The position numbers and the translations under genes were made by a program. Of a stretch of 48,446 bases of DNA, positions 19,550 to 35,734 are shown one piece after another. A model generated the notes under the pieces. That model saw only the letters and a program-made list of their open reading frames with translations. It was not told the origin of the DNA and searched no databases. The DNA comes from Methanobacteriota archaeon (GTDB lineage Archaea > Thermoplasmatota > Poseidoniia > Poseidoniales > Thalassarchaeaceae): NCBI GenBank assembly GCA_002722735.1, contig PBMR01000015.1:97673-146118 (forward strand). Reading direction: 5' to 3'. The stretch's first letter is position 1. Every line of letters starts with the position of its first letter.

Positions 19550-19570
19550 CGCTCGATTGCCTCTCCGTCA

Positions 19571-19580
19571 CATCATAAAG
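19571..19580 (+). promoter_or_regulatory. TATA-like element of folP
   Basis: CATCATAAAG is centred about 29 nt upstream of the ATG at 19605. An in-frame TTG at 19557 would lie before this element and is therefore not the likely start. A GGAAGGGG tract before the ATG could also serve as a ribosome binding site. Confidence 0.45.
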
Positions 19581-19604
19581 CAATCGTCGTTTGGAAGGGG
19601 CGAG

Positions 19605-20438
19605 ATGGCCGACTGGCGACCTATGCTCAATCACCGAGAGAGTGGAATGCCCCAAATAATGGGTGTTGTGAACGTCACTCCGGACTCGTTCCACCCCAGT
19701 TCTAGGGCTCCGGATAGGCTGGAGGCTGTCTCCCGAGCCGTTCTCATGGTCGAACAGGGAGCCGACTGGATAGACGTAGGAGGCGAATCGACTCGTCCGG
19801 GCGCCGCTCCCGTTCCAATAGGAACCGAGGCTGAGCGCGTGGTACCGGTGATTGAGGGAATAAGGGATGCGCGGCCAGACGCTTGCATCTCCATCGACAC
19901 GCGGAGAGCAGAGGTTGCTCAGAAGGCGCTGAGTGCTGGAGCGGACATGGTCAACGACGTCTCATCACTCGGGGATCCGGACATGCTGGGGGTGATTGTC
20001 GACCATGGCTGCCCCGTTTGCGTAATGCATATGCAGGGACTGCCGGAGAACATGCAGAAAGACCCGAGGTACGGGGACGTGGTGGCGGAGATCAGGGGGG
20101 CTCTGGAAAGCGTGGCTGAACGCCTCCTAGACCATGGTCTGGCCCCGGGGGAGATCGTCGTTGACCCCGGCATCGGCTTCGGTAAGCATCTCGAGCACAA
20201 CCTCGCACTGCTATCCGCCGGGAGGTGCATTGCTCCAAGGGAGGGCATGCCCCTGATGTGGGGGGTGAGCAGGAAGAGCATGTTCGGGGATCTGCTCGGC
20301 AGGGATTCGAGCGAAGACCGGTTGTCGGGCACGCTGGGGGTGGCGGCGATGGCCCCCTCCAAGGAAGTGGACATAATCAGGGTGCACGATGTGGCAGAAC
20401 ATTCCGACCTGTACGCAGCGATGTCCGCATTGGGGTGA
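19605..20438 (+). CDS. folP: Dihydropteroate synthase
   Basis: Joins pterin pyrophosphate and p-aminobenzoate in folate synthesis. 277 residues forming a TIM barrel. Both family signatures are present: MGVVNVTPDSFH at 19-30 and DVGGESTRPGA at 57-67. Downstream are SIDTRRAEV, VVDPGIGFGK (pterin pocket) and GVSRKSMFG (the SRK motif). Many archaea lack canonical FolP, so presence here suggests tetrahydrofolate rather than only methanopterin chemistry, and perhaps gene transfer from bacteria. The downstream traB-like gene begins 4 nt after the stop, so the two are cotranscribed. Confidence 0.95.
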   Translation: MADWRPMLNHRESGMPQIMGVVNVTPDSFHPSSRAPDRLEAVSRAVLMVEQGADWIDVGGESTRPGAAPVPIGTEAERVVPVIEGIRDARPDACISIDTRRAEVAQKALSAGADMVNDVSSLGDPDMLGVIVDHGCPVCVMHMQGLPENMQKDPRYGDVVAEIRGALESVAERLLDHGLAPGEIVVDPGIGFGKHLEHNLALLSAGRCIAPREGMPLMWGVSRKSMFGDLLGRDSSEDRLSGTLGVAAMAPSKEVDIIRVHDVAEHSDLYAAMSALG

Positions 20439-20442
20439 ACAC

Positions 20443-21612
20443 ATGAATCAAGGGGCACGCAGCGTGATAGATGTGGACGAGCGGCTTAGGCTCGTTGGCA
20501 CCGCTCATGTCAGCACCCAGTCCGTCGATCTCGTACGCAGGCAGATCGAGGAATGGGGTCCCGACCTAGTGGCTGTCGAGCTGTGTCCCTCTAGGATGGC
20601 GGCCCTCACTGAGCCTGACTCACTGGAGTCAGAGGACCTGCTTAAGATAATCAACGAGGGCAAATCGGCGATGATCCTGCTGCAATCCGCCCTAGCAGCC
20701 CAGCAGCGCAGGATGGGTATCGCCGCTGGCGAGCAGCCGGGGGCCGAGCTGCTTGCTGCGATCGAGGCAGCCGAGCATGCGGGAATTCCGATCGAGATGA
20801 TCGATCGTGACGTGGTGGTCACACTCAGAAGGGCGTGGGCGAGGATGGGCCTGATTGAGAAGTGGAGGGTCCTCAACGCGCTCCTGTGGGAAGAGGATGA
20901 GGATGAGGATGTATCGATAGAGGAAATGCTCGGGGATTCGGACCTCCTGAGCAAGCTGCTCGAGGACGCGCGCGAGGTCGCACCAAATGCCGGTGAGGTC
21001 TTGATTGACGAACGCGACGCCTTCCTAGCTGGCAGGATCCAGCAGATCAGGGGCAAGGGCAGGATTCTGGTAGTGATAGGAGCAGGTCACCTCAGCGGCG
21101 TAGCTCATCACCTCGGGGAGCCTGCGATGGAGACAACCGCCAGGCTCACCGAACTGAGGCTCGAGCCCAAGAAGCCAACTTGGCCCAAAGCAGTGGTGAT
21201 GGTGATCCCCATCCTCCTCTTGGGAGCGGTTGCCTTGATGGGGTACAACGGCCAAATGGATGACCTCAGGCAGACAGCTGAGACCTGGCTGGTCATGAAC
21301 GCCCTACTAGCCGGATTGGGCGTTCTCCTTGCTCGGGGCCACCCCCTATCCATACTCGTCGGAGCGGTTGCCTCCCCGATAACATCCCTGAACCCCGCTC
21401 TGGCTGCGGGTTGGTTCGCTGGCTACACCCAGCTCAAGGTGGCTGCTCCGACTGGCAAGGACGCTCAGGACTTCCTAGCGCTTGACGAAATATCGCTGCT
21501 CTGGAAGAACCGGGTCGGAAGGGTGCTAATGGTCACGGTCATGGGGAACATTGGGTCGTCACTAGGTGCTATTCTTGCCGGCGGGGCGATTATCGGCATG
21601 CTACTGAGCTAG
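20443..21612 (+). CDS. TraB-family protein with C-terminal membrane domain
   Basis: 389 residues. The TraB/PrgY domain (about 1-220) shows RLVGTAHVS at the start, DLVAVELCPSR and a C-terminal VVIGAGHLSGV. These carry the two GxxH and Glu residues shared with TIKI-type proteases/erythromycin-esterase-fold proteins. An acidic low-complexity loop (EEDEDEDVSIEE) lies near residue 150. The C-terminal third is hydrophobic, with three to five helices. The family is widespread in euryarchaea; a membrane protease-like activity is proposed from fold relationships but not established. ATG 20443 follows the folP stop by 4 nt. It converges with the LipT-like gene. Confidence 0.85.
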   Translation: MNQGARSVIDVDERLRLVGTAHVSTQSVDLVRRQIEEWGPDLVAVELCPSRMAALTEPDSLESEDLLKIINEGKSAMILLQSALAAQQRRMGIAAGEQPGAELLAAIEAAEHAGIPIEMIDRDVVVTLRRAWARMGLIEKWRVLNALLWEEDEDEDVSIEEMLGDSDLLSKLLEDAREVAPNAGEVLIDERDAFLAGRIQQIRGKGRILVVIGAGHLSGVAHHLGEPAMETTARLTELRLEPKKPTWPKAVVMVIPILLLGAVALMGYNGQMDDLRQTAETWLVMNALLAGLGVLLARGHPLSILVGAVASPITSLNPALAAGWFAGYTQLKVAAPTGKDAQDFLALDEISLLWKNRVGRVLMVTVMGNIGSSLGAILAGGAIIGMLLS

Positions 21613-21649: not shown

Positions 21650-22705
21650 TCAGCGGGACAATTCCGCGACTATGAAGCGCTCGCGCGACTCATCGTCGGC
21701 CGCAAGGACGACACGGTGCAGATCTGCGACCATTCGGACCATCCCTGCAGCGGCCTTGCGATAGTTCTGGACTGGTGATTCGTATCCCGATTCCACTATC
21801 GCCTCAGCGGCCAGCAGCCCGCTCTCCAGAGCCAGTCTGATGCCCTCGCCGGAGAGCGGGTTGCACAGTCCCGCGGCATCGCCGACCAGCAGCGCGCCCG
21901 AGGCATCGAGAAGTTGCTCACCGAAGGGGATGGCCCACCCCTCCTGGAGGGCCGCTTCACCGATCTCGGCCACCCCGTTGCTCTCCAGCCAATCGGAGAA
22001 GCGATCCAAGGATGGCATCAGGTCGGTACGGGCCTCCTCAGTCATCCCGCTGCCAATCTTGAGCATCCCTCCCTTGGGCACGGTGTAGGCGTAGAACGGG
22101 CTGAGCGTCTCGGCGAAGACGCAGTGGAAGTCCGATGGCATCTCCTCGGAGACGCTGACCAGCCGCTGACCTACGAGTAGCTTGGGTGAGGGGGCATCAG
22201 GATTCAGCATCCTTCGAACAAGGGAGTGGACCCCGTCTGCTCCGACAAGGCACCTCGCTCCGGCCTGCCTGTCCTCGCCCTCATGATGGTAGGTGACATT
22301 GAAACAATTGGTCGCATTGACCTCGATGACCCTCGCTTCGTGCAGCACCTCGGCACCTGCTAGGGATGCTCGATCGCGCAGCCACTGGTCGAACTCGTCC
22401 CGCTTGACGTTTATCAACCGGAAATTGCGAACCCGCCCCCCATTGGCCTCACCGCTCGGAGGGGTGTAGCGCAGGCTGAGTTCCGCTGGCTCGGAGAGCA
22501 CCTCCGGTGGCAGGGGGGAGTCGAACACATCCTCGATGAGCTCCCCTGTAATCTCGGGTAGAATGCCCCCACAGGGCTTGTGCCGAAGCCTGCCGCCCCG
22601 CTCGAGCAGGAGCGTGCTCAGCCCAGCAGCAGCAGCCACGGTGGCCGCACTAGCGCCACCGGGACCGCCTCCGACGACAATCAGGTCCCATTCCGTGCGA
22701 GTCAT
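21650..22705 (-). CDS. lipT: Geranylgeranyl-reductase-like flavoprotein, LipT candidate
   Basis: A 351-residue FAD oxidoreductase. The Rossmann motif VVGGGPGGASAA is at the N-terminus, followed by CGGILPE (the CGG motif of the geranylgeranyl reductase family), the GADGVHSLVRR motif, and the FAD-contacting LLVGDAAGLCNPLSGEGI. On sequence alone it could be an archaeal lipid geranylgeranyl reductase. Context argues otherwise: its ATG overlaps the lipoate ligase stop by 4 nt, and it is the last gene of a lipoate-assembly operon. From memory of the sHdr literature, such operons commonly carry this flavoprotein as LipT, proposed to pass electrons to the radical-SAM lipoyl synthases. LipT is therefore favoured; a lipid role remains possible. 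Confidence 0.72.
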   Translation of the reverse strand: MTRTEWDLIVVGGGPGGASAATVAAAAGLSTLLLERGGRLRHKPCGGILPEITGELIEDVFDSPLPPEVLSEPAELSLRYTPPSGEANGGRVRNFRLINVKRDEFDQWLRDRASLAGAEVLHEARVIEVNATNCFNVTYHHEGEDRQAGARCLVGADGVHSLVRRMLNPDAPSPKLLVGQRLVSVSEEMPSDFHCVFAETLSPFYAYTVPKGGMLKIGSGMTEEARTDLMPSLDRFSDWLESNGVAEIGEAALQEGWAIPFGEQLLDASGALLVGDAAGLCNPLSGEGIRLALESGLLAAEAIVESGYESPVQNYRKAAAGMVRMVADLHRVVLAADDESRERFIVAELSR

Positions 22706-24348
22706 TCCACCACACCCCCCTTGGCAACGACCCTCTGGTCCGTATCGGCCTCGGGCGTCTTTGAGGGGATGAAGCAAGTCCCATGACATGGATTGACATT
22801 GCCCATCACAGCCTCCAGAAGAGGCAGTTTGAGGTCGGCTTGGGCTTCGAAGGTGCCAGCGTAGGCCTTCCCCTCCTCACCGAGGTTGTAGCAGGTCTTG
22901 CCCACTATGTCCAGAATCACGCCGGGGATGCCAGCATCCCTGAAGGCCTCGTTGCGCTTGATGAAGAACGGTTCGCAGGCGCAGCCGATCCACGACTTCA
23001 CCCCCTGTGCCTTCATTCCAGCCAGAGTCTCCTTGAGATGTTCGAACTTGACGATGGTAATCGCCTCCAGATTCTTCTCCTTGGCCATTCCGTAGGCATC
23101 TCCGATGGTGCACATGCCACACTCGTCACAGCCTTGGGTGAAGCGGTACTCGCAATCGGGCAGCTTTGCGCAGTAGGGCAGCAGAAGCACGCTCGCATCG
23201 GACATCACCTGTTCGATGCTACTGCCCTCGGGGACGTTGACGGGATACACGGAGCTAGCATCCCCCTCAGATATTCCGATTCTGTTGTAGCTGGTCTGCT
23301 CGAGAGCGAGCTTGACCGCATCGCAGAAATCGGCAGGAGTGAGGCCCACTAGGTCCACCTGATTCTGGTCGAAGAAGCGTGTGATCGTACCGCGGACCTC
23401 CGGGAAGGGGGTGTTCATCAACTCCGCCTCCAAATCCATAATGGCCCTCCGGGGATTGATGAAGAAGTCGCCCGTTATCAGGACCTGGCGAAGCCACGAG
23501 CGCTTCACATCCACTGCGGCATGAACACGAAGCATGCCACCTGGGCGCTTGTGTATCGAGGAGTAGATCTGCTTCTCGCCATCCGGGGCCGAGATCGAGT
23601 GAATCCAATCGTCGGACTCGAACTCGGGCAACTTCTCCTCGAGCCTCTCGAGCTCGCTATGACTGAGTCCCCCGGGGGCAAACTCGGCACCCAGTGCCTC
23701 GGCGAAGGATCCGGTGAGCGCCTCCCTGATGGCTTGGGCAGTGGGGACCTCTGTCAAGAGGTCCGAGAGGCAGGTCACCCTGTCACGGGCAGTCTCCAGC
23801 CCCCTAGGAGTGAGCTTCTCGGTGGGGATTCGGAGTGCCAGCAGCATCGCCTCGATGTCAAACTCGACCAGCACCGTCCCTTGATACAGGAAGATGCCAT
23901 CATCTGCAACACCTCCTGTGCCGGATATCTTGCGCCCGTCCACCTCGATGTCGTTTCGCGGGCGGAACTCCGCTGCAACCCCAAGTTCGCGCAATCCTGT
24001 GGCAGCGGCTTCACAGACGGTGCGAGTCAGCCCCGTCATGTCAATGCCCTCGAAGTCAGTAGTGGCACCGACCAACTCCCAGCCTATCTGTGTCGAGTCG
24101 AAGTAGATGGCCCCGCCCCCAGTCAATCGCCTATTGACATCGACACCGTGATCCCTGCACCAATCCACCCGTGCCTCCTGGACCACTACCTGGTGGTGGC
24201 CGACGAGGACTGCAGGGGGGGAGAACTGCATGAAGCGGAGCGTGTTCGGGATCTCGTCGGCGATGCGGGAGTCGAATAGCACCTGATCCAGTGCTATATT
24301 CTCGGCAGCCGACCTGACCCCGGTGTCGAGCAGCCTCCATGCCTTCAT
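22702..24348 (-). CDS. Lipoate:protein ligase sLpl(AB)-like, fused to a DUF116-like domain
   Basis: 548 residues in three parts. Residues 1 to about 240 form an LplA ligase domain with RRLTGGGA at 73-80 (canonical RRxSGGGA) and the catalytic-lysine region GRKISGTGG with Lys140. Residues about 250-350 resemble the LplB accessory domain (IHKRPGGMLRVHAAVDV, ADFCDAVKLALE). Residues about 388-512 form a cysteine-rich segment resembling DUF116: LPYCAKLPDCE, CDECGMC, GCACEP and GKTCYNLG, followed by CHGTC near the end. The first two parts would load octanoate or lipoate onto LbpA in the cytoplasm; the third may bind metal or an FeS cluster. The fusion is unusual. Start ATG 24348 has a GGGGTGG site. 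It overlaps the next gene by 4 nt and follows lipS2 by 10 nt. Confidence 0.85.
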   Translation of the reverse strand: MKAWRLLDTGVRSAAENIALDQVLFDSRIADEIPNTLRFMQFSPPAVLVGHHQVVVQEARVDWCRDHGVDVNRRLTGGGAIYFDSTQIGWELVGATTDFEGIDMTGLTRTVCEAAATGLRELGVAAEFRPRNDIEVDGRKISGTGGVADDGIFLYQGTVLVEFDIEAMLLALRIPTEKLTPRGLETARDRVTCLSDLLTEVPTAQAIREALTGSFAEALGAEFAPGGLSHSELERLEEKLPEFESDDWIHSISAPDGEKQIYSSIHKRPGGMLRVHAAVDVKRSWLRQVLITGDFFINPRRAIMDLEAELMNTPFPEVRGTITRFFDQNQVDLVGLTPADFCDAVKLALEQTSYNRIGISEGDASSVYPVNVPEGSSIEQVMSDASVLLLPYCAKLPDCEYRFTQGCDECGMCTIGDAYGMAKEKNLEAITIVKFEHLKETLAGMKAQGVKSWIGCACEPFFIKRNEAFRDAGIPGVILDIVGKTCYNLGEEGKAYAGTFEAQADLKLPLLEAVMGNVNPCHGTCFIPSKTPEADTDQRVVAKGGVVE

Positions 24349-24358
24349 TTGCCACCCC

Positions 24359-25387
24359 CTAACCACAACATCCAGTTGTTGCTCCCTCGTCCGTCAGGCA
24401 GCAGCACCCCGTCGAGACCGAGATGTCAAGACCCATCTCGATGGCAAACTCGTGCCCCTCCTCCGAAGGATAGGCCATCCCGTTGACCCCAGCGCGAATG
24501 GCGAGTTTGTCTGTCTCGATCTTGTGATCCCCCAATGGTCGAGCACATCCCATGATGACAGGGGTGTCGGGCATTGCCAGCCTGCAGGCGAGGATCACTC
24601 GAGCTACCTCCATCGGCGTGCTGGTTGGGGAGTCCTCCATCGGTGTGTCGAGCAGAGGCTTGAACGCGACAATCATGACGCGTTCGGGCTTGTGCCGTGC
24701 TATCATGCGGACTGCCTCGGCCTCGCCCCTAAGCTCACCGCGATGCAACCCGACCACCACGTGAGGCATCAGCGGGACGCCATGGTCGCTGAGCAGCCCC
24801 ATTGAGTGTTCGAAAGCCTCCTTGACGATTTCGAGATGGTAGATCTCGCTGATGGTGGAGTCCGAACCCATGATATCGAGCATCGCCCCATCCACCTCGG
24901 CATCCGCCAGGGCTGCGGCCACCTCCTCGAAGACGACTCCCGTGTGTACCACGACTGAGAGGCCGAGCTCCTTCTTGGCCCGTTTGATCGTCGGGATGAA
25001 GCGCAATAGCGGGACATCGCCCCCGAGGGTCGAGCCGCCGCTGACCAAGCATCCCGTCCCCCCTCTCTCGACAATCTTCAGGAATACCTGCCAGAGCTCT
25101 TGGGGGGTAGTGGCCGGAATCATGGTCTCGAGCATCTTCGCATCGCAGTGCTCGCAAGCCAGAGCGCACGCATCTCCCGTGATCGATACAGAGGGGAAGC
25201 GGAACGGGTCGGTCTGCTTGATGTGCTCGGTCTCGTACGAGACCATTCCGGGAATGCTGAGCGCGAAGTCGTCTCCGAAGTGCTGTCGGGATGTCTGCCA
25301 AGCCTGCTCGAAAAGTGGCCCGAGCTCCTCCTCGGGGGCTTTCATGCAGAAGTCGATAACATCCACGTACCGATCACTGATCATCAT
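24359..25387 (-). CDS. lipS2: Radical-SAM lipoyl synthase component LipS2
   Basis: A 342-residue radical-SAM protein. The SAM/4Fe-4S cysteines are Cys74, Cys78 and Cys81 in CALACEHC. A second set of cysteines ends the protein (TGCCC and GCCG), fitting the auxiliary cluster needed as sulfur donor. The overall pattern (SITGDACALACEHCDAKMLETMIPA) resembles COG1856 biotin-synthase homologues, the group to which archaeal LipS2 belongs. With LipS1 it would insert two sulfurs into a protein-bound octanoyl chain; which carbon each acts on is not inferred. It overlaps the end of lipS1 by 14 nt. Choosing LipS2 rather than LipS1 rests on family resemblance from memory. Confidence 0.82.
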   Translation of the reverse strand: MMISDRYVDVIDFCMKAPEEELGPLFEQAWQTSRQHFGDDFALSIPGMVSYETEHIKQTDPFRFPSVSITGDACALACEHCDAKMLETMIPATTPQELWQVFLKIVERGGTGCLVSGGSTLGGDVPLLRFIPTIKRAKKELGLSVVVHTGVVFEEVAAALADAEVDGAMLDIMGSDSTISEIYHLEIVKEAFEHSMGLLSDHGVPLMPHVVVGLHRGELRGEAEAVRMIARHKPERVMIVAFKPLLDTPMEDSPTSTPMEVARVILACRLAMPDTPVIMGCARPLGDHKIETDKLAIRAGVNGMAYPSEEGHEFAIEMGLDISVSTGCCCLTDEGATTGCCG

Positions 25388-26552
25388 ACGGGTCCACCTC
25401 CTCGTCCTCGGCCCCCTCGTAGTCTCCGAGCTGCCTGCGCACGTGAGAGATATCGGATTCCACAGGAGGAATTGGGAAATTGCGCCAGCGACCTTGGGCG
25501 GCCTCGTACGGGGAGCAATTCCCGAACGGCCTATTGCAGGCGCAATCGACGGTCTCGCCAGAGCATCCCGAGGTCATGAACGCCTTGCCCTCGTCGGTGA
25601 CAGCGTTGAGCAGACGTTCATCGACCCCGAAATCGGTGATGCGCCCAGTCCCATCGTAGGACATGGAATCACCGCGGCCGAGGTCCTCGTTGATAAGGTG
25701 GCGAGCAAGTTGGATCCTGCGGTAGGAACCGATGGGCGGCTGTGGCCAGTCCTCGAGCAGGGTCCCGGGTTCGGGATTGAACGAGAACAGGTGAGTCAGG
25801 GCCCCCATGTCATGAGCCCTCTGCATCGTGGCGACGAGTTCCTCCTCGGTCTCCCCGAGCCCTGCGACCAAGTGGATGCCGGAATTTCGGGGGCCGAAAA
25901 CCTCGATGGTGTCCTCGATGCAACGCCAATAGTCGTCCCAGTCCAATGGCCCCCTCACTTCCTTGCCCCTGACCGCATCGAATACCCCCCTCGTAGCCCC
26001 ATCTAGGGCGGTTGCAACCATATCGGCGCCAGCCTGCTTGGCGCGTATGAGCCACTCCTTGTCGATCACCGTGGGCATCAGGAGGATGGAGATCCGCGAA
26101 ATCGACTCCGAAAGCTTGCGGACCGCCTCGATAGTGTCCTCCTTGGCCCCACGGTTCAGCACCATCGAGACGCACACACGCTCGATATCGGGAACCGAAC
26201 CGCTGCTAATCGACTCATTGACCTCCTCGAGAGAGACGAGGGGCCAGTCGACCCGGATGAAGGAGCGGTCGATCCAGTCATCCTCTGATTCGCGCGACTT
26301 GGCCAGCCCGCAGTATCCGCATTTCGCATGACAGCCATCCTCGTAGTCGAGTAGCACGTTGATCGAATGCAGCCTCGCATCACGGTAGAATCGCCCATTC
26401 TCCGAACCCATAACCAGAGCTGCTGCCTGACTGGTCCTCACATGGGTGACCCGTGGGGACTGCGAGTCTTCTGCGCCCGGCCCGCACTTCGCTTCACCAT
26501 CTGCCAAGGGGAGATCGATTGCCCCCGATGATCTGACCGTGGAATCGCACAT
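25374..26552 (-). CDS. lipS1: Radical-SAM lipoyl synthase component LipS1
   Basis: 392 residues. The radical-SAM cysteines are Cys74, Cys78 and Cys81 in CHAKCGYC. The preceding HVRTSQAAALVMG / GRFYRDARLHSINVLL segment and the C-terminal Cys cluster (TSGCSG, DCACNRP, GNC) resemble COG2516 biotin-synthase-related proteins, where archaeal LipS1 falls. First gene of the minus-strand lipoate operon (lipS1-lipS2-sLpl-lipT), transcribed divergently from arsR-tusA. The ATG at 26552 is used; an in-frame TTG lies 6 nt upstream. The Met about 47 codons downstream would remove the conserved VRTSQAAAL segment. The first 30 residues are poorly conserved-looking and contain two extra cysteines. Confidence 0.82.
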   Translation of the reverse strand: MCDSTVRSSGAIDLPLADGEAKCGPGAEDSQSPRVTHVRTSQAAALVMGSENGRFYRDARLHSINVLLDYEDGCHAKCGYCGLAKSRESEDDWIDRSFIRVDWPLVSLEEVNESISSGSVPDIERVCVSMVLNRGAKEDTIEAVRKLSESISRISILLMPTVIDKEWLIRAKQAGADMVATALDGATRGVFDAVRGKEVRGPLDWDDYWRCIEDTIEVFGPRNSGIHLVAGLGETEEELVATMQRAHDMGALTHLFSFNPEPGTLLEDWPQPPIGSYRRIQLARHLINEDLGRGDSMSYDGTGRITDFGVDERLLNAVTDEGKAFMTSGCSGETVDCACNRPFGNCSPYEAAQGRWRNFPIPPVESDISHVRRQLGDYEGAEDEEVDPYDDQ

Positions 26553-26617
26553 AGACAAATCACCAACACCCAGCTAGAGCCCTGCCACCGTCTAGATTGA
26601 GTGGGAGAATAGAGTTT

Positions 26618-26643
26618 TTCATATATCGCAGAATCATTATATG
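26618..26643. promoter_or_regulatory. Divergent TATA elements forming a dyad between lipS1 and arsR
   Basis: CATATA at 26620-26625 and TATATG at 26638-26643 are exact inverted repeats with a 12-bp spacer. Each arm sits within a TATA-like stretch (TTCATATAT and CATTATATG; GCGATATATG on the other strand). The 124-bp gap therefore holds overlapping promoters for the lipoate operon and the sulfur operon. The dyad is a natural operator candidate for the adjacent ArsR-type regulator. Which arm serves which direction is not certain. Confidence 0.5.
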
Positions 26644-26676
26644 CTCCCCACACTCGTAAGGCGAGACGGTGGTTTG

Positions 26677-27051
26677 GTGACTCAAGCCAATTTCGAAACA
26701 AGCGGTTCTGACGGGGGCGCTGAGTTCCTGCGTGCAGCCTCCCTCATCATGCGAACCCTGGGCCATCCGGAGAGGCTGCGCATCATCGAGTACCTCTCCC
26801 CGGGCGAGCGCTCAGTCGGTGAGATCCAGAGGCATATCGAAATCAGCCAGCCGCAGACCTCCCAGCACCTCACTAGGATGCTAGATCGAGGGATCCTCGT
26901 TTGTCGCACCGAGGGCAACAAGCGCTACTACTCCATCACCAGCCCGTTCATCCACAAGCTGCTTGGCTGCTTCTCAGAGTGTCAGGAGAAGGTCGCCTCC
27001 GGTGAATGGGCCTTCCTTCTCGACATATACAGGGAGAGTTATGAGAAATGA
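26677..27051 (+). CDS. ArsR-family transcriptional regulator of the sulfur locus
   Basis: A 124-residue winged-helix repressor. The ArsR core reads HPERLRIIEYLSPGERSVGEI, then the recognition helix ISQPQTSQHLTRML and the wing RGILVCRTEGNKRYYSI. Cysteines are Cys76 in the wing strand and Cys98/Cys102 in the C-terminal helix (GCFSEC). Thiol-based sulfane-sulfur sensing, as in SqrR/BigR/sHdrR-type ArsR proteins, is possible, but the cysteine positions differ from a simple match. GTG 26677 has a GGTGG site upstream and gives a normal N-terminus; ATG 26641 is in frame but lies within the TATA-like dyad. It overlaps tusA by 4 nt, so the regulator is transcribed with the genes it probably controls. 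Confidence 0.83.
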   Translation: MTQANFETSGSDGGAEFLRAASLIMRTLGHPERLRIIEYLSPGERSVGEIQRHIEISQPQTSQHLTRMLDRGILVCRTEGNKRYYSITSPFIHKLLGCFSECQEKVASGEWAFLLDIYRESYEK

Positions 27052-27284
27052 CGGAAGTTGAAGTTGACATGGAATTGGACTGCTCTGGGCAGAGTTGCCC
27101 ACTGCCCGTTCTGAAGACGAAGAAGGCGATGGACAATATGGAGAGCGGTCAGATTTTGAGGATGGTATCCACCGATCCCGGTGCGGTCAGCGATATGGAC
27201 GCATGGACCAAGCACACCGGCAATGAGTTGGTGGCCAGCGATGTAGCGGGCCCCGAGTACGTATTCTACATGAGGAAGAAGTGA
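27048..27284 (+). CDS. tusA: Sulfur-carrier protein TusA
   Basis: A 78-residue sulfur transferase that carries a persulfide on a conserved cysteine. The CPxP motif is SCPLP with active Cys17; a second cysteine (Cys12) lies five residues before. Size and the KTKKAM helix match the family. In sulfur oxidisers TusA accepts sulfane sulfur from rhodanese or DsrE proteins and delivers it to the oxidation machinery. It is coupled to arsR by a 4-nt overlap, and a DsrE3-type gene follows 12 nt later. Confidence 0.93.
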   Translation: MTEVEVDMELDCSGQSCPLPVLKTKKAMDNMESGQILRMVSTDPGAVSDMDAWTKHTGNELVASDVAGPEYVFYMRKK

Positions 27285-27296
27285 GGGGGCTATGGA

Positions 27297-27812
27297 ATGA
27301 GTGAGCAAGCACCGAAGAAAATGGCCATAATTGCCTCGAAGGGCACGCTTGATTGGGCCTACCCCCCCTTCATCCTCGCCTCGACTGCAGCAGCAATGGG
27401 TATGGAGGTGAAGATTTTCTTCACCTTCTACGGCCTGCCCCTGCTGAAGAGGGATCTGAAACCGGCGGTATCCCCGCTCGGTAACCCGTCTATGCCGATG
27501 AAGATGCCCTTCGGGCCGAAGTTCTTCCAGGGCATCAACTGGCCGATCCCGAATCTGGTCACGAGCAACGTGCCCGGGTTCGAGACCGTGGCAACCGGAT
27601 TGATGAAGAAGACGTTCAAGAACAAGGGGGTGGCGACCATCGGAGAGCTCCGTGATATGTGCCTGGAGTTCGATGTCGAGCTCATCGGCTGCCAGATGAC
27701 GATGGACGTCTTTGGCTTCGAACTGGGGGAGTTCATCGAGGGAGTGAACATCGGCGGGGCTGCTACCTTCCTCGAGTTTGCCGCCGAAGCCGATATCCAA
27801 TTATTCGTGTGA
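27297..27812 (+). CDS. DsrE-family sulfurtransferase, DsrE3A-like
   Basis: A 171-residue DsrE/DsrF/DrsH-like protein. MAIIASKGTLDWAYPPFILAS followed by AAMGMEVKIFFTFYGL is the typical DsrE3 start. The probable sulfur-carrying residue is Cys132 in LIGCQMTMDVFG, with Cys122 nearby. The family exchanges persulfide sulfur with TusA in the cytoplasm. The longer hydrophobic loop (about 60-90, rich in Pro and Met) is common in the DsrE3A group and may mediate membrane or partner contact. SD GAGGGGG lies before the ATG. It sits between tusA and a second DsrE gene, as in other sHdr loci. Confidence 0.88.
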   Translation: MSEQAPKKMAIIASKGTLDWAYPPFILASTAAAMGMEVKIFFTFYGLPLLKRDLKPAVSPLGNPSMPMKMPFGPKFFQGINWPIPNLVTSNVPGFETVATGLMKKTFKNKGVATIGELRDMCLEFDVELIGCQMTMDVFGFELGEFIEGVNIGGAATFLEFAAEADIQLFV

Positions 27813-27836: not shown

Positions 27837-28214
27837 ATGGACGAAGATGATGGAAGCGTTGCGATTTACATGACCTCCGGGCCGGCGACCCCACAGCGCT
27901 GCGCCACCCCCTTCTACATGGCCAGCATCGCTGCGGCGATGGACAACGAGGTCAAGATGGTCTTCCAGATAGACGGGGTGCTTCTGATGGTCAAGGGGGT
28001 GGCCGATGACCTCTATGCGACCGAGGGTGGTAAGCTGGTATTGGACTTCATTCGCGACGCCAAGGAGGCAGGGGTGGAGATGTACGTCTGCTCTGCCGCG
28101 CTCCAACTTCACAGCATCACCAAGGACGACCTTATCGAGGAGTGCGAGGGAGTTGTGGGTGCGGCCTGGATGACTGATGTGGGCTTGGACGCCGATCTGG
28201 TGCTGATGTACTGA
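27837..28214 (+). CDS. Second DsrE-family protein
   Basis: 125 residues. DsrE fold start (VAIYMTSGPATPQRCATPFYMAS, AAMDNEVKMVF), then VEMYVCSAALQLHSI. Cysteines 22, 85 and 103 are candidates for persulfide transfer; Cys85 occupies the usual DsrE active position, and DDLIEECEGVVGAAW follows. It is shorter than its neighbour and belongs to a different DsrE subgroup (DsrE3B or DsrE2-like; not resolved by eye). An SD-like GGAGGG tract lies upstream, with 24 nt between genes. Likely role: intermediate sulfur carrier between TusA and LbpA/sHdr. Confidence 0.82.
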   Translation: MDEDDGSVAIYMTSGPATPQRCATPFYMASIAAAMDNEVKMVFQIDGVLLMVKGVADDLYATEGGKLVLDFIRDAKEAGVEMYVCSAALQLHSITKDDLIEECEGVVGAAWMTDVGLDADLVLMY

Positions 28215-28223
28215 GGTGAGAGA

Positions 28224-28682
28224 ATGGAGGTGAACAACTGCATGCTGCCGGATGGGCTGCTATACCACGTGGATTACAACGTCTGGGTGAGCCAGAACGA
28301 TGACGGGACCGTCGACCTCGGAATGACCGACATCGCTCAGACCCTAGCTGGCTCGATCATCCACTGCAGGCCCAAGAAGGTCGGCAGGGGGGTGAAGGCG
28401 GGCAGGAGCGTTGCCACAGTGGAATCGGGCAAGTGGGTGGGACCGGTCAAATCCCCTCTCACAGGGGAGATCGTCTCGCGGAACGACGCGGCCGAGGCGG
28501 ACGCGACCATCCTCAACCGCTCGCCCTACAATGAGGGCTGGATCGTCAGGCTGGCGCCCGTCGACTGGGACGGCGAGCGTGCTGCGCTGGTAACCGGTGA
28601 GCAGGCTTCCGAGGGGTTCGCTGCCTACATGGCCGAGAAGGAGCTGTCAGAGTGCATCCACTGCGAGGGTTTCGAGGCATAA
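28224..28682 (+). CDS. lbpA: Lipoate-binding protein LbpA
   Basis: 152 residues, homologous to glycine-cleavage H protein but of the sHdr-dedicated LbpA type. The lipoylated lysine is Lys70 in VESGKWVGPVKSPL, where GcvH has ESVK. In sHdr organisms the lipoyl arm carries sulfur substrate to the heterodisulfide-reductase-like complex. No glycine decarboxylase genes are near, and a dedicated ligase and LipS1/LipS2 are in the divergent operon, which supports LbpA. Unusual detail: the C-terminus ends with a CIHC pair (Cys144/Cys147) on a short tail, which could be a redox site. The ATG has a GAGGTGA site. Confidence 0.93.
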   Translation: MEVNNCMLPDGLLYHVDYNVWVSQNDDGTVDLGMTDIAQTLAGSIIHCRPKKVGRGVKAGRSVATVESGKWVGPVKSPLTGEIVSRNDAAEADATILNRSPYNEGWIVRLAPVDWDGERAALVTGEQASEGFAAYMAEKELSECIHCEGFEA

Positions 28683-28987: not shown

Positions 28988-29710
28988 ATGCTGCCATTGT
29001 ACCGTGATGCGAAGTACACCGACGTCCCCACAGGGGACAAGCAGGATCTGTTCGATGCCGTCAAGTCCGACATGAGGTACTCGCACGAGCTGTACGGCTG
29101 CTACGAGTGCGGCATCTGCGTCGCAGCCTGCCCCTCTGCGAGATTCTACGACTTCAGCCCGAGGGTTTTCGCCCAGACGATGGCGCGCGAGGACATTCAC
29201 ACCTTCTACGAGCTGCTCAATGACTCGGTGTGGGACTGCTCGCAATGCTTCTCGTGCACTTGCTGCCCCCGTCAGAACAATCCCGGTGGAATCATCACCA
29301 TCATGCGCGAGGTGGCAGTCAACACTGGGCTCCAATCCGCCAAGGACGCCCTGCGTGCATACTCTCGCATCATCTACAAGGTGATGTCCACGGGGACCCA
29401 AGTCTCCCCGGACATGCTGCAGCCGGATTTCTTCCCCGACTGGGGGCCTGATGTGCGTGACGTCTCCTTGAATCTCGACGTCTGGCGCCGTGCCATCCCC
29501 CCCGAGACGCTGCATACAGTCGAGATGGCTTGGGATGTCAGCGAGAAGACCAAGCTGGAGCTCTACATGATCTGGAAGCTGACCGGTAACCTCGAGATGA
29601 TCGAGAGCGTCGACGAGGGGCTGTTCATGATCCTCGAGGAGGTCATGGAGGAATTGCTGGACGAGCACGGGTACGACATCGACGACTACGACTGCATAGT
29701 GGGAGACTGA
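28988..29710 (+). CDS. shdrC1: sHdrC1, iron-sulfur subunit of the sulfur-oxidising Hdr-like complex
   Basis: 240 residues. The first ferredoxin-type motif is Cys38-x2-Cys41-x2-Cys44-x3-Cys48 (CYECGICVAACP). The second is Cys84-x2-Cys87-x2-Cys90 followed by CC at 92-93 (CSQCFSCTCCPR), a crowded variant of the usual CxxCxxCxxxCP. The rest is helical and ends in an acidic tail. It relays electrons between HdrB1 and HdrA in the cytoplasm. The ATG is preceded by GAGGTGAGG. Spacing of 8 nt to sHdrB1 and the C1-B1-A-Hyp order match known sHdr clusters. Confidence 0.9.
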   Translation: MLPLYRDAKYTDVPTGDKQDLFDAVKSDMRYSHELYGCYECGICVAACPSARFYDFSPRVFAQTMAREDIHTFYELLNDSVWDCSQCFSCTCCPRQNNPGGIITIMREVAVNTGLQSAKDALRAYSRIIYKVMSTGTQVSPDMLQPDFFPDWGPDVRDVSLNLDVWRRAIPPETLHTVEMAWDVSEKTKLELYMIWKLTGNLEMIESVDEGLFMILEEVMEELLDEHGYDIDDYDCIVGD

Positions 29711-29718
29711 GGGGTTCG

Positions 29719-30930
29719 ATGATAGGGGACGACGGGGCAATCCGATTGAAGGTGGCCAACCAAGCCCCACCAAAGGCATCGGATCGGGAATTCGAGCTTC
29801 CCAAGGAGCCGCCGACCGCAGACCACAGGGAGCAATTATTCGCCCTCGAGGAGGCCGGGGAGCTGGAGGTCCTCCGCGTTCCCGAGCCCTTGGTGAAGGT
29901 AGACACGAAATACGGACGCAAGAAGAAGATCCCAATCGAGAACACATGGCATCACAAATCCTGTGGCCAGTGCGGCCACATTCCCGGCTACTCCAGCTCC
30001 ATCTACTGGTTGAATCGGCAATTCGAGCTCAACTACCACGACCCGCGGGAACAGACGTCCTGCACGGCCTGGAACTACTACGCCTCATCCACATCCAATC
30101 CAGCAGCCCAAGCCGCAGTCGCCTGTCGCAACTTCGCCCAGGCCAAGTTGGACGGATACTTCCCGCTCATCCACTGTGGAACCAGCTACGGGCACTACAA
30201 GGAGGTGCGTGCGCAACTACTCCACTACCCAGAGCTGCGTCAACAGGTGCGCGATGTGCTCGATCGACTGGGTTTGCCCTTCGTCTTCCCCGAGGAGGTC
30301 GTTCACTACTCCGAGTGGATCCATGTGATGAGACATCGCATAGCCGAACGCCAAGTCAGGGACTTCTCGGCCATCCCCGCCACCGTCCACCCTGCCTGCC
30401 ACTATCACAAGCTGGTCGTCGAGGACGCGATCTACGACCGCGACCTGTACGACGGCCAGCGCACCGCCATCGTATCAGGAGTTGTCGAAGCCCTAGGTGC
30501 CACGGTGGCCGATTACTCGACTTGGCACGACTGCTGCGGCTTCGGCTTCAGGCACATACTAGTCAGCCGCGACTTCTCCCGCTCCTTCGCCACCATCCGC
30601 AAGATCGAGCGCATGAAGGAGGAGGCCGACCCAGATGTCACCCTGACCCATGACACCGGTTGCGTGACCACCCTGGACAAGAGTCAGTTCTCCACACAGG
30701 CGCACGGGCGGAACGTCGGCATCCCGGTGATGTCAGACGCCCAGTTCGCCGCCCTCTCGATGGGAGCGCACCCGTACCTCGTGTGCCAGCTTCACTGGCA
30801 TGGCGTCGACATGAAGCCGCTGCTTGAGAAGATGGGGATAGATCACGTCGGGGCTTGGGAGGAGTTCGAGAGGGTCGCCGAGAGGCTGGAGCAGAATCCA
30901 GAGGCGTTCCTGACTTGGGAGGAAGTATGA
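29719..30930 (+). CDS. shdrB1: sHdrB1, CCG-domain subunit
   Basis: 403 residues, larger than methanogen HdrB (about 300) because of an 80-residue N-terminal extension. Cysteines that could hold the HdrB-type non-cubane clusters include Cys82 and Cys85 (SCGQCGH), Cys115 (SCTAW), Cys227 (HPACHYH), the Cys272-Cys273 pair (DCCGFGF) and Cys315 (DTGC). In Hdr the CCG clusters cleave a disulfide; in sHdr the reaction is thought to run oxidatively on a sulfur substrate carried by LbpA. The stop codon is immediately followed by the ATG of sHdrA with no gap. Confidence 0.9.
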   Translation: MIGDDGAIRLKVANQAPPKASDREFELPKEPPTADHREQLFALEEAGELEVLRVPEPLVKVDTKYGRKKKIPIENTWHHKSCGQCGHIPGYSSSIYWLNRQFELNYHDPREQTSCTAWNYYASSTSNPAAQAAVACRNFAQAKLDGYFPLIHCGTSYGHYKEVRAQLLHYPELRQQVRDVLDRLGLPFVFPEEVVHYSEWIHVMRHRIAERQVRDFSAIPATVHPACHYHKLVVEDAIYDRDLYDGQRTAIVSGVVEALGATVADYSTWHDCCGFGFRHILVSRDFSRSFATIRKIERMKEEADPDVTLTHDTGCVTTLDKSQFSTQAHGRNVGIPVMSDAQFAALSMGAHPYLVCQLHWHGVDMKPLLEKMGIDHVGAWEEFERVAERLEQNPEAFLTWEEV

Positions 30931-31992
30931 ATGAGTGAAAAGAGGATAATGGTGATTGGTGGGGGGCCTGCTGGCCTAGAGGCGTCTCGTGGAATTGTGG
31001 AACTGGGTTACGAGCTAGTCCTAGTGGAGCATCTGGAGGAGCTAGGCGGCTCACCGATCTCGGCTGACTACGCCGCTCTGACGCCCGACATGGAGGATAC
31101 CGGGGTGGCGATGGCCCGGATGGTCGACGCGGTGGTCGGCAACGAGAATGCTGACATCAGGCTGAGCAGCAGCATTGCCTCCGTCGAGGGCTCGGCCCCC
31201 AACTTCCGCGTAACTGTGGAATCTGGCGGGGAGTCCGAGGTGGTGGAGGTCGGTTCGATCATCGTGGCCACCGGCTTCAAGCACTTTGACCCCGGACGGG
31301 AGACGCAGAGGTACGGATACTACGAATTCGACGACGTCATCACCCTAATTGATGCCGAGAGGATGCTCAAGGGAGGCGGTTTCGTCAGACCCTCCACAGG
31401 CGAGCCCCCCAAGACCGTGTGCTTCATCCAGTGCGTGGGCAGTCGCGACCGCCAGATAGGGAACCAGTGGTGCTCCAAGGTCTGCTGTGGCGTGGCCACC
31501 AAGGAGGCCATCGAGATCAAGCACCTCCTGCCCGAGTGCAGGGTGATAGTGTTCTACATCGACATGCGCGTGTACGGCTTCTGGGAGGACCAGCTGTACT
31601 GGAAGGCCCAGGAGGAGCACCATGTCAACTTCATCCGCGGCATCATCAGCGAGGTCACCAAGCGCGGGGACACAGTCGTAGTCAAGGGCGAGGATACCAC
31701 GATGGGGCGACCGATGGAGGTGCCGATGGACGTCGTCATCCTCTCGGTGGGGATGGAGCCTTCGGACGGCACCCTGGCGATGGCCGAGATGCTCGGCCTG
31801 CCATTGGAGTGCCATGGTTGGATCGAGACCATCGATGGTGCGCTGAACACGGTGCAGACCCCGGTCGACGGGGTCTTCGTCGCCGGTGCGGCTGCCGGCC
31901 CCGCCGACCTCGAGGACTCGATCTCGATGGGCGGTGCAGCGGCACTGAAGGCGTGCTCCTTCGTGCGCCGCACCTCACTACCTACAATCTAA
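30931..31992 (+). CDS. shdrA: sHdrA, FAD subunit
   Basis: A 353-residue flavoprotein, the short HdrA form without the extra ferredoxin and thioredoxin-reductase inserts of methanogen HdrA (about 650 residues). The Rossmann motif VIGGGPAGLEAS is at 8-19. The HdrA cysteine set is Cys164, Cys168 (CFIQCVGSRD), Cys181 and Cys185/186 (WCSKVCCGVATK). A second nucleotide motif lies near VDGVFVAGAAAGPADLEDS. The absence of the bifurcation-associated domains fits a sulfur-oxidising rather than methanogenic role. It directly abuts sHdrB1. Confidence 0.93.
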   Translation: MSEKRIMVIGGGPAGLEASRGIVELGYELVLVEHLEELGGSPISADYAALTPDMEDTGVAMARMVDAVVGNENADIRLSSSIASVEGSAPNFRVTVESGGESEVVEVGSIIVATGFKHFDPGRETQRYGYYEFDDVITLIDAERMLKGGGFVRPSTGEPPKTVCFIQCVGSRDRQIGNQWCSKVCCGVATKEAIEIKHLLPECRVIVFYIDMRVYGFWEDQLYWKAQEEHHVNFIRGIISEVTKRGDTVVVKGEDTTMGRPMEVPMDVVILSVGMEPSDGTLAMAEMLGLPLECHGWIETIDGALNTVQTPVDGVFVAGAAAGPADLEDSISMGGAAALKACSFVRRTSLPTI

Positions 31993-32004
31993 GGCGGCCT
32001 TCGA

Positions 32005-32772
32005 ATGCTATACGACTCACTGACAGTTCGGGATGTGGTGGACTCCGAGTCCGCCGTCGAGTTTCTCAAGGAGGCGACCAAGCTCGCCACCTCGCACGAG
32101 CTGGAGGGCATAGCCCAGAGGCTGGAGGCCAAGCGGGACCTGTTCGGTACCGAGCTGTCCGAGGTGCGTCTGGGGAGTATGTCCGAGGAGGGGTTCGTCG
32201 AACTCCTCCGGCACGTCTTCTCGATTCGGCGCAAGTCGCGCAGACTGGTTCGGATCGTGGGCGTGGATGCGCTGCGAGGGGCCGTGAGTGACCTCGTTCA
32301 TGGCAGTGGGGATCCCTCCGACCGATTCGAGGCATTCGTCTCCTCGATGGACGGGGTCATCGACCAACGTCGTGCCATCAACCTAGCCGGAGAGCTGCTT
32401 CACTTCAGCGACCCGGAGCAGCACTGGCTGTGGACCAATTGGATGTGGGACCACCAGACTGGCTCTGGGGCGCTCCCGATGGTCATCCAAGACGATGCCC
32501 CCCTCTCAGGAGGCAGCCTCGCAGAGCGATACCGGAACGTCGGGGCTGCCCTTCGCTTGGTGGAGGCCTCAGGCCATTCTCGAAACATCTCCGGAAACGC
32601 GGATGGGATGCTCGGCAACGACCTGTTCCTGGCCTGCGTGCACGGCGTCTACATGTACACCGTGTTCCGGCTCAAGCTATCCAACGAGTTCAACCGCATC
32701 CTCCCCGAACTACCCGAGCTCGTCGAGAGGGTTCTCGGGGTCCGCAATCTGGAGGTACGTCCGAATGACTGA
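32005..32772 (+). CDS. sHdr-associated protein Hyp (sHdrH)
   Basis: 255 residues, soluble, mostly alpha-helical by appearance, with a single cysteine in LACVHGVYMYTVFRLK. It contains no recognisable cofactor motif. Position between HdrA and the HdrC2/B2 equivalent is the hallmark of the Hyp subunit in sHdr clusters, and size is right. Function is unknown; an assembly or structural role is usually assumed. Its 3' end overlaps the next gene by 8 nt, so translation is coupled. Confidence 0.78.
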   Translation: MLYDSLTVRDVVDSESAVEFLKEATKLATSHELEGIAQRLEAKRDLFGTELSEVRLGSMSEEGFVELLRHVFSIRRKSRRLVRIVGVDALRGAVSDLVHGSGDPSDRFEAFVSSMDGVIDQRRAINLAGELLHFSDPEQHWLWTNWMWDHQTGSGALPMVIQDDAPLSGGSLAERYRNVGAALRLVEASGHSRNISGNADGMLGNDLFLACVHGVYMYTVFRLKLSNEFNRILPELPELVERVLGVRNLEVRPND

Positions 32773-34039
32773 GCACGAGTACCAGAACTTCGTCGAGAAG
32801 GAGAACGCGGTTATCGATGGCATTGACGTGTCCGGCATCTGGAACCGCATGTGGGAACCGCGGGAGTTGACCGGTTTCGACTTCACCTATCTCGACAAGG
32901 TCACGAGCCTTCCTGGTGGGGCGTCGATGAGGGCATGCTACCAGTGTGCCGAGTGCGTCGGGGCATGCCCCGTGGACAACGTCGGCTCGTACGGCCCACG
33001 CAAGCTGTTCCAGAGGCTGCAACGTGGAATGGACCTGTTCAACCACCCCGACCTGTGGCTGTGCACCACCTGCAACAACTGCCTGAGGGTCTGCCCCAAG
33101 GGGGTGGATATGATGCAGGTCATGCCGGCTGCGCGAGAGCAGGCCATCCTAGACGGCAACGTACCCGCCGAGCTGCAGGAGATGCTCCAGAACGTCGCCG
33201 AGTACGGCAATCCCATGGGCGAGTCAGCCCGGAGGAGGACTCGTTGGACCAAGGGGGTCGAGTACCCGGTTCGCGACCTCTCGAAGGATCCAGGCGAAGT
33301 CGACGTGCTCTGGTACGTGAGCGACTACTTCAGCTACCACTCGCGGGGCAACGACGCGGCCCGCGCCATGGTCAGGGTGTTCAACCACCTAGGGGTGGAC
33401 TTCGGCATACTGGGTCGCGGCGAGCGCTGTGACGGGGACTCGCAGCGCCTGTGCGGTGAGGCCGGTTTGTTCGAGGAGCTGGTCGAGCACAACCACGCCC
33501 TGTTCGAGCAGAACCCGCACCAGACGCTGGTGGTTAGCGACCCGCACGCCTACAACGCGCTCAAGAACCACTATCCCGAGCTCACAGGGGTCGAATACCC
33601 GGTTCAGCACTACACTCAATTCCTAGCCGGGCGAATCGCCCAGCTCAACGGGCTTCTCACTGGGGAGTTCGCGCGCAAGGTGACCTTCCACGACCCATGC
33701 TACCTCGGCAGGCACAACGGCGAGTACGAGGCCCCGAGAAATCTCATCGAGACCGTTCCCGGCGTCGAGCTGATCGAGATGTTCCGCTGCAAGCAGCAGG
33801 GCTACTGCTGCGGCGGTGGCGGTGGTGGGATGTGGTTGGACGGCCTGACTGCCGACCACACCAGCGAGCGCCTCTCCGAGAACAGGGTGCGCGAGGCGGT
33901 GGAAGTCGGCGCGGAGGTCCTAGCGGTCTGCTGCCCCTACGAGGTCTCGCGCTTCGAGGACGCGGTTAAGTCGACTGGCAACGAGGACGTCCTCGAGGTG
34001 CTGGACATCATAGAGATCATCGATATGTGCATAGGATGA
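32765..34039 (+). CDS. shdrB3: sHdrB3: fused HdrC2-HdrB2-type subunit
   Basis: 424 residues. The N-terminal HdrC-like domain has two 4Fe-4S motifs: Cys58/61/64/68 (CYQCAECVGACP) and Cys100/103/106/110 (CTTCNNCLRVCP). The C-terminal part has two CCG-type repeats. The first is degenerate (GERCDGDSQRLCGEAG). The second is complete: FHDPCYLG, GYCCGGGGGG and AVCCPYE. The fusion of C2 and B2 next to etfBA is the arrangement of the type II sHdr cluster as I know it. The start ATG 32765 overlaps the Hyp gene by 8 nt. It is clearly paralogous to the soluble part of the membrane oxidoreductase at 35761. Confidence 0.9.
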   Translation: MTEHEYQNFVEKENAVIDGIDVSGIWNRMWEPRELTGFDFTYLDKVTSLPGGASMRACYQCAECVGACPVDNVGSYGPRKLFQRLQRGMDLFNHPDLWLCTTCNNCLRVCPKGVDMMQVMPAAREQAILDGNVPAELQEMLQNVAEYGNPMGESARRRTRWTKGVEYPVRDLSKDPGEVDVLWYVSDYFSYHSRGNDAARAMVRVFNHLGVDFGILGRGERCDGDSQRLCGEAGLFEELVEHNHALFEQNPHQTLVVSDPHAYNALKNHYPELTGVEYPVQHYTQFLAGRIAQLNGLLTGEFARKVTFHDPCYLGRHNGEYEAPRNLIETVPGVELIEMFRCKQQGYCCGGGGGGMWLDGLTADHTSERLSENRVREAVEVGAEVLAVCCPYEVSRFEDAVKSTGNEDVLEVLDIIEIIDMCIG

Positions 34040-34058: not shown

Positions 34059-34799
34059 ATGAGGTTCGCAGTGCTTCTGAAATGGGTACCCGACCTCGTT
34101 GAGGACCTGGAGGTCGACGACGAGGGGACGGGGGTCGACACCGAGGACCTGAAATTCAAACTCAACGAATTCGATGACCACGCCCTCGAACAGGCCCTCC
34201 TCCTCGCTGGCGAGGGCGACGAGGTCGTCGCGCTCACGCTGGAAGGGGATGGGGCTGAGAAGATGCTCTGCACGGCCATCGCCAAGGGGGCGAGCCGTGG
34301 CATCAGGCTTACCGGGGGCTCGTCCTTGGACACAGCGGGCCTTGCCGACTCGTTCTCCCAAGCCCTGGGGGCAGATACGTACGACCTGATTCTCACCGGG
34401 GTCCAGTCGGTCGACGACCGCGACGGGCAACTGGGGCCCGTCCTAGCAGCGCGGATGGGACTGCCGTGCGTCTCGGTTGTCAGCGAGGTCGGCCTTGAAG
34501 GCAGCACTGCGATGGTCGCCAAGGAGTACTCGGGGGGGATGGTGGCCGAGTTCGAGGTCGACCTGCCCGCCGTTCTCGGGATACAGGCTGCCAGTGAGGC
34601 GCCTCGCTACGCACCCGTGAGCAGGGTCCGCCAGGTCCAGCAGACCGTGGACCTCGAGGAGTTCGCAGTCTCAGGGACGGGAGCCAGCTCGGGTAGCTCG
34701 ATCACCGGGATGGCCCAGCCCGAGTCCGGTGGCGGCGCCAAGATGCTCACGGGCCTCGACGAGTTGGTCGAGGTCCTCAATGGCCTGGGGGTGACCTGA
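34059..34799 (+). CDS. etfB: Electron transfer flavoprotein beta subunit
   Basis: 246 residues. Typical EtfB start (RFAVLLKWVPD), NEFDDHALEQALLL, and the signature region LTGVQSVDDRDGQLGPVLAARMGLP, ending in a Gly/Ser-rich linker and C-terminal helix. With EtfA it takes electrons, here presumably from the sHdr complex, and delivers them to the membrane oxidoreductase encoded downstream. A strong SD (GGAGGGG) precedes ATG 34059. The TGA overlaps the etfA ATG by 1 nt. Whether this Etf bifurcates cannot be told by eye, but no ferredoxin partner is encoded nearby. Confidence 0.92.
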   Translation: MRFAVLLKWVPDLVEDLEVDDEGTGVDTEDLKFKLNEFDDHALEQALLLAGEGDEVVALTLEGDGAEKMLCTAIAKGASRGIRLTGGSSLDTAGLADSFSQALGADTYDLILTGVQSVDDRDGQLGPVLAARMGLPCVSVVSEVGLEGSTAMVAKEYSGGMVAEFEVDLPAVLGIQAASEAPRYAPVSRVRQVQQTVDLEEFAVSGTGASSGSSITGMAQPESGGGAKMLTGLDELVEVLNGLGVT

Positions 34800-35734
34800 T
34801 GGCCGGGGTGCTGGTTGTCTGCGAGCACCTCTCTGGGGGCTTCGCGGATATCACCTTCGAGATGCTGGGGCTGGCAAGCAGCCTGCAGGTCGGTGAAGTC
34901 AGCGCGGTTGCCTTCGGATCCATGGCCGACAGGTCAGGCGAGCTCGGAGCGGCGAGCACCGTGATCTCGGCTGGCTGCTCGGACGACTTCAACCCGGAGG
35001 AGTACGCTGCAGCGGCCAAGTCCGCCGTCGAGACCACATCGCCCGACCTCGTTCTGGTTGCCTCGACCTCGATGGGGTACGACATCGCGAACCCGCTGGC
35101 CGCCACTCTGGGAATTCCACTCATCGCATACTGCACGGGAATAGAGCCCGAAGAAGGGGCGTTTGTGTGCACCAGCTCGCTATACGGCGGCAAGATGGGG
35201 GTCACTTCGACAGTCCCGGGCCCGGCAGTGGTGATGATGCTCTCCGGAGCGCACAACGCCGATGACGGGAGAATCGAGGGGAGTCCGGGGGTCAGCGATC
35301 TCGGCGCGGTTGACACGCCGGGCAGGGTCCGCTTCAAGCAGCTGATTGAGCCGGACCAGGGGGACGTCGACATCACCCAGTCGGGTGTGCTGGTCGCCAT
35401 AGGCCGCGGAATAGGCGGCAAGGATGACATCGAGGTGGCCGAGGAGCTAGCCGATCTGCTGGATGCCGACATGGCCTGCTCCCGACCCCTCGTCGATGCC
35501 GGATGGATGCCGAAGTCCCGTCAAGTGGGGAAGTCCGGAATGAGAGTCAAGCCGAGTCTGTACATCGCACTGGGAATTTCCGGCGCCCCCGAGCACATTG
35601 AGGGGATGAAGGACTCAGCTACCATCATCGCCATCAACAGCGATGAGAACGCGCCGATCTTCGATGTGGCTGACTATGGCATGGCAGAGGACCTGTTCGA
35701 TGTCTGCGAGGAGCTTATCGAGGAGCTGGAGTGA
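34799..35734 (+). CDS. etfA: Electron transfer flavoprotein alpha subunit
   Basis: 311 residues. The N-terminal alpha/beta domain begins [11 protein letters not shown]. The C-terminal FAD domain has the EtfA signature: [38 protein letters not shown] and [17 protein letters not shown]. The FAD-binding residues of these motifs look intact. Forms a heterodimer with EtfB. The gene is coupled to etfB by a 1-nt overlap and followed by the Etf:quinone-type oxidoreductase 26 nt later, forming a complete relay from Etf to membrane. Confidence 0.95.

Follow-up and report, generated by a model that had tools for sequence, protein, structure and literature searches.

Does one short stretch of DNA control both the assembly of lipoate and the oxidation of sulfur in an uncultured archaeon? 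A preliminary description of the DNA analysed here (48,446 nucleotides, hereafter the window) had proposed a single divergent control point in a 124-bp gap (26553..26676), where a bound ArsR protein would shut off both operons. The gap is real: it is bounded by the start codons of a radical-SAM lipoyl synthase gene on the minus strand (ATG) and of arsR on the plus strand (GTG). The lipoyl synthase gene had been named lipS1. By NCBIfam, the gene adjoining the gap is lipS2 (25374..26552, minus strand; NF053743, E 1.7e-59) and lipS1 (24359..25387, minus strand; NF053742) lies one gene further, both calls falling below the curated cut-offs (201.7 bits against 270 for LipS2, 205.7 bits against 230 for LipS1). 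On the same strand follow a gene for an lplAB-like lipoate-protein ligase with a DUF116 tail (22702..24348) and, as the last gene of the lip cassette, one for an FAD-dependent oxidoreductase (21650..22714). From 26552 down to 21650 these genes overlap or nearly touch (for the biology of LipS1/S2 and LplAB, see PMC10332631).

On the other side of the gap, arsR (26677..27051, plus strand, GTG start) encodes an ArsR/SmtB-type winged-helix regulator of 124 aa, recognised by NF033788 and by its AF2 model. It is followed on the plus strand by tusA (27048..27284; PF01206), dsrE2 (27297..27812; NF047629, over the cut-off), a dsrE-like gene (27837..28214; PF02635), lbpA for a GcvH-like lipoate-binding protein (28224..28682; PF01597), the sHdr genes (hdrC1, hdrB1, hdrA, a hypothetical gene and an HdrC/B-like gene, 28988..34039), and etfB and etfA (34059..35734). 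Intergenic gaps from arsR to etfA are at most 24 nt. A Type II sHdr cluster is defined by shdrC1B1AHB3 and etfAB in one cluster (PMC11582611); the window has HdrC, HdrB, HdrA-type, HdrC/B-like and etfBA in order, and its hypothetical gene has no Pfam match. Because both operons are so tightly packed, both promoters must lie inside the 124 bp unless one of them is intragenic. No other sizeable non-coding space is open to either operon, and one divergent control region is thus likely in the source genome (G000, a draft assembly of 1.4 Mb, 80% complete; the gap is on contig C15), which we take to be that of a marine Poseidoniia-type archaeon. A Shine-Dalgarno-like GGTGAT (26559..26564, minus strand) stands 6 nt before the lipS2 ATG, and GGTGA is the commonest word at -20 to -10 in this genome.

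We then asked whether the gap contains an operator. The preliminary description had pointed to CATATA (26620-26625) and TATATG (26638-26643), and these are indeed exact inverted repeats with a 12-nt spacer. Taken alone, this dyad (26620..26643) does not exceed chance: when the gap was dinucleotide-shuffled 5000 times, 29% of the shuffles had a perfect inverted repeat of 6 nt spaced by 0-20 nt, as did 369 of 780 window tiles. Conservation in relatives, which the preliminary description had expected of the dyad, held for a looser form, ATAT-N12-ATAT (ATATCGCAGAATCATTATAT, 26623..26642), the same element with its axis shifted by 1 bp; the exact CATATA-N12-TATATG was seen in this one arsR upstream region out of 24 and is ruled out as the conserved form of an operator. 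These counts might suggest that the exact dyad is a chance inverted repeat without function. Nearly the whole of it, however, overlaps the conserved element, and we give this reading very little credence. ATAT-N12-ATAT itself appeared in 37 of 20000 shuffles of the full gap (0.2%); a further shuffle figure, with the element of the source genome included, was 78 of 20000. The 1.4-Mb source genome has 5 copies versus 2 of the reversed pattern, and a second match in the window lies at 4006-4025. As a separate observation, a perfect 9-nt inverted repeat, CCACCGTCT/AGACGGTGG (26585-26593 and 26664-26672), flanks the dyad. A repeat of this length was found in 0.9% of gap shuffles, a lower share than for the dyad; in 426 kb there are 6 occurrences of AGACGGTGG, two of them in the gap. 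The repeat may be a translation-start sequence.

ATAT-N12-ATAT was present upstream of arsR at 18 of 24 homologous loci and in 12 of 15 lineage groups (near relatives lumped by genus and similarity, a grouping of our own), including all 6 sHdr genomes. In 2000 shuffles, the mean was 0.56 groups and the maximum 4 at the N12 spacing and 5 at any spacing. The 16-bp register was first seen in an EM search for palindromic motifs and the word ATAT was picked after inspection of the motif results. A test free of word and spacing, which covers palindromic 4-mers only, ranked ATAT at a 16-bp step best among 16 palindromic 4-mers and 31 spacings, with 11 of 15 groups when the element of the source genome was left out (shuffle maximum 5, 300 shuffles). 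In relatives, the ATAT half-sites often number three or four and form an 8/16-bp ladder: such multi-copy ladders stand at 12 of 24 loci, with three ATATs at exact 16-bp steps at 9 and steps of 16-8-16 at 3 more. Distances of 8, 16, 24 and 32 bp between ATATs were found in 6, 12, 5 and 6 groups, respectively. The six arsR loci without ATAT-N12-ATAT are those of G295, G322, G315, G318, G321 and G323. A different dyad, ATTAAG-N12-CTTAAT, precedes arsR in the last four; these loci (L044, L045, L043 and L068) belong to one genus, g20, and the arms reach 8 nt in two of the four.

An AT-rich element of this kind could be core promoter only, the TATA/BRE of one or two promoters, with no operator at all. 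ATAT resembles a TATA box, and the right half-site (ATTATATG, 26636..26643, plus strand) lies where the arsR TATA box could be, making it a candidate for that box by position alone. Yet the step is fixed at 16 bp across most groups and half the loci have ladders, and the pattern is found in none of 75 other promoters of the same loci and in 3 of 757 AT-rich windows from them, the windows addressing the difference in AT content between the control promoters (48%) and the arsR regions (56%). We thus consider a pure core promoter improbable. Taken together, these comparisons support an operator-like element in the gap, one that is conserved before arsR genes of this archaeal class.

The element of the source genome is of a weak kind: it has two half-sites, its arms measure 4 bp when read in the conserved register, and its third site is degenerate. 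The possible third half-site is GAAT (26607..26610), 16 bp from the distal ATAT, at the step where relatives carry ATAT. The element starts at -54 from GTG 26677 and 70 bp from the lipS2 start; among relatives, it starts at -54 in G046 and at -58 in G029, G049 and one G189 copy. An ATG at 26641, open and inside the right arm of the dyad, is disfavoured as the arsR start; it would place the element at -18. We prefer the GTG because the element then stands at -54, as in relatives. A promoter model built from 116 upstream regions in 426 kb of the source genome was too noisy to place TATA boxes, and we treat the TATA-like elements that had been reported on both strands of the gap as putative. An ArsR protein bound at the gap might block TBP, as proposed.

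We next examined how the two operons are arranged in relatives. LipS2 matches were found in 6 of 339 genomes of the class and matches to the lipoate-binding protein in the same 6; ArsR matches were found in 23 of the 339 genomes, at 24 loci. All three proteins were absent, at the thresholds used, from all 20 other listed genomes of the same genus (G121-G140). A LipS2 scan of viral contigs found none. A scan of GTDB genome contigs gave 4 loci, three of which had already been found; the fourth, from a Thorarchaeota record, had lip genes but gave no arsR match. The arsR loci without sHdr mostly read arsR-tusA-dsrE2-rhodanese-like, and so the regulator belongs to an older sulfur module and not to sHdr specifically.

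Among the six sHdr/lip genomes, lipS2 and arsR stand head-to-head in the source genome only. In G335, a rhodanese gene separates arsR from lipS2 (L026 1891-2934); in G163, some 14 kb separates the lip and arsR clusters, which share a strand; in G046, G164 and G166, each of the two clusters has its own contig and is preceded by other sequence. ATAT-N12-ATAT was found before lipS2 in none of these five genomes, arguing that lip control is not a conserved target; the two copies in G335 are both beside its arsR. Other features of these loci were seen as well. Before lipS2 of G046 there is a broken rhodanese remnant (L017 5082-5198) with 77% identity over 39 aa to the intact G335 gene. ACAAAGGTTTGTAATC is present before lipS2 in G046 (L017 about 4960-4985) and G335 (L026 about 2990-3010) and was not seen in the window gap; it is possibly a separate lip control element. 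In G163, G164 and G166 (L055, L054 and L053), arsR lies inside a cluster, tusA-dsrE2-arsR-dsrE-lbp-hdr, with an ATAT ladder directly before it, suggesting an internal promoter before arsR.

The folP-traB pair (19557-21612 in the window) is found near arsR in six relatives (G029, G034, G037, G046, G049 and G332). The slot that separates traB from arsR is occupied differently: by a divergent TauE gene in G034 and G037, by a divergent rhodanese gene in G046 and G332 (with a further gene in the latter), by no large gene in G029 and G049 (166 and 253 bp), and by the lip cassette in the source genome. Divergent rhodanese partners of arsR also occur in G104, G106, G045 and one G189 copy; that such partners are again sulfur genes speaks for the explanation favoured below. 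Because this slot is common to the six relatives, arsR looks like the resident and lip like the newcomer. Read most simply, the slot already had its operator when the lip cassette entered it, and the cassette then came to be governed by that operator.

The same facts can be turned against control of lip. ArsR might control its own operon only, the lip promoter being in the gap by accident of the gene move and either constitutive or otherwise controlled. This fits an element that goes with arsR and not with lipS2, and a slot in which arsR was there first. On the other hand, the element lies so close to the lipS2 start within a gap of this size that a bound repressor would likely hinder either polymerase, and homologous repressors of Hyphomicrobium are described as binding before lipS1 too (PMC12423496, PMC10451225). 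We regard control of the arsR operon alone as rather unlikely, though it is the rival to be taken most seriously. The claim that lipoate assembly and sulfur oxidation are controlled from a single point can be kept in part: gene layout makes it likely in the source genome, but it is not a conserved design.

What might the regulator sense? The protein belongs to the ArsR/SmtB family: it scored 42.2 bits with PF01022 (cut-off 22) and 71.7 with NF033788 (cut-off 55), and its AF2 model (pLDDT 90.2) has the ArsR fold and matches CzrA, SqrR and HlyU. The best structural matches were nearly tied (HlyU, Z 14.5; YgaV, 14.0; CzrA, 13.9; BigR, 13.8; SqrR, 13.3), and residues 13-107 matched SqrR 16-110, and residues 10-105 HlyU 10-105, without gaps. 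The genes nearby (sulfur oxidation, rhodanese or TauE) are those of a SqrR/BigR/sHdrR-type neighbourhood, and the score with the NCBIfam BigR model was below its cut-off (50 bits against 155). By gapless structural match, the cysteine pair of SqrR, BigR and sHdrR is absent, both positions being Glu (Glu38 and Glu104); we take the sensor pair of SqrR to be Cys41/Cys107 and that of HlyU to be the equivalent pair. Glu38 is present in 22 of 24 homologues. Because the sensor positions are Glu, the bridge mechanism of SqrR and sHdrR does not apply as such.

Three cysteines had been proposed as sulfur sensors. Counted over all 24 homologues (alignment A1 has 23, with G166 omitted as nearly the same as G164), Cys98 is invariant (24/24), but Cys102 is found in 4 and Cys76 in 7, and none of the three coincides in position with either cysteine of the pair known to sense sulfane sulfur. 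The 124-aa protein has no CxxC; Cys98 and Cys102 form a CxxxC in helix alpha5. Sensing would then depend on a single thiol or on a mechanism across the dimer.

We favour the following explanation and hold it, with some reserve, to be probable: the adjoining ArsR governs the gap, as a divergent promoter region, through predicted binding to ATAT, release by sulfur and co-control of lip. ArsR dimers would bind the ATAT half-sites 16 bp apart (26623-26642), as they would the longer 8/16-bp ladders of relatives. The half-sites overlap or flank the predicted arsR TATA region, so that a bound ArsR could repress arsR-tusA-dsrE2-dsrE-lbpA-sHdr-etf. A sulfur species made when sulfur substrate is present would release the repressor, and would probably be read at the invariant Cys98 in helix alpha5. 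In the source genome, the lip cassette (lipS2-lipS1-lplAB-FAD oxidoreductase) presumably came to lie between traB and arsR; its promoter is expected in the same 124 bp and would therefore be co-controlled. A broader proposal is more tentative, and we consider it possible but not likely: that an archaeal ArsR class senses sulfur via a single invariant alpha5 Cys98, possibly by a cross-dimer bridge or persulfide, and binds an ATAT ladder with 8/16-bp steps cooperatively, the moved lip cassette having been captured by the operator in the source genome. To our knowledge, neither sensing by a single alpha5 cysteine nor binding to an ATAT ladder has been described for sulfane-sulfur ArsR proteins. 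This ArsR family is a defined case of an ArsR without the sensor pair, with an invariant single cysteine and a predicted operator, and the locus suggests how moving genes can bring the assembly of a cofactor under the repressor of a pathway that depends on it.

Joint ArsR control of sHdr and lipoate assembly is itself already known: SoxR and sHdrR of Hyphomicrobium denitrificans bind DNA fragments from upstream of lipS1, of dsrE3C and of the shdrR locus, and the soxR work describes lip and shdr genes as responding together (PMC12423496, PMC10451225). A search of the open-licence literature found no publication on the archaeal case in uncultured archaea. The Hyphomicrobium system is like the window in that an ArsR-type gene lies beside shdr and lip genes. 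It differs in the sulfur bridge of sHdrR, formed by Cys50 and Cys116 (PMC12423496, PMC10451225), both of which are Glu in the window ArsR; in the window, moreover, the host is archaeal, a single divergent gap is common to the lip and sHdr operons, and the operator-like element is an ATAT ladder. Section 2.1 of PMC12423496 notes that the two sensor cysteines are missing from many of the ArsR proteins encoded next to shdr, and that these may act in another way. SqrR, BigR, YgaV and HlyU share with the window ArsR the same fold (Z 11.4-14.5 among the matches listed, several gapless over the core) and a similar gene company (rhodanese, TauE), whereas the window ArsR is without the Cys pair and has a single invariant cysteine in alpha5, placed earlier by one to two turns. 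Like the window ArsR, SurR of Thermococcales is archaeal and has an ArsR-like winged helix; it has a sulfur-responsive thiol switch, but is described as a protein of two wHTH domains with a CxxC in the N-terminal one and with GTTn3AAC-type sites (PMC12162507). What is new here, compared with these systems, is the predicted ladder of operator half-sites in an archaeon, an invariant cysteine other than the known pair, and one divergent gap common to both operons.
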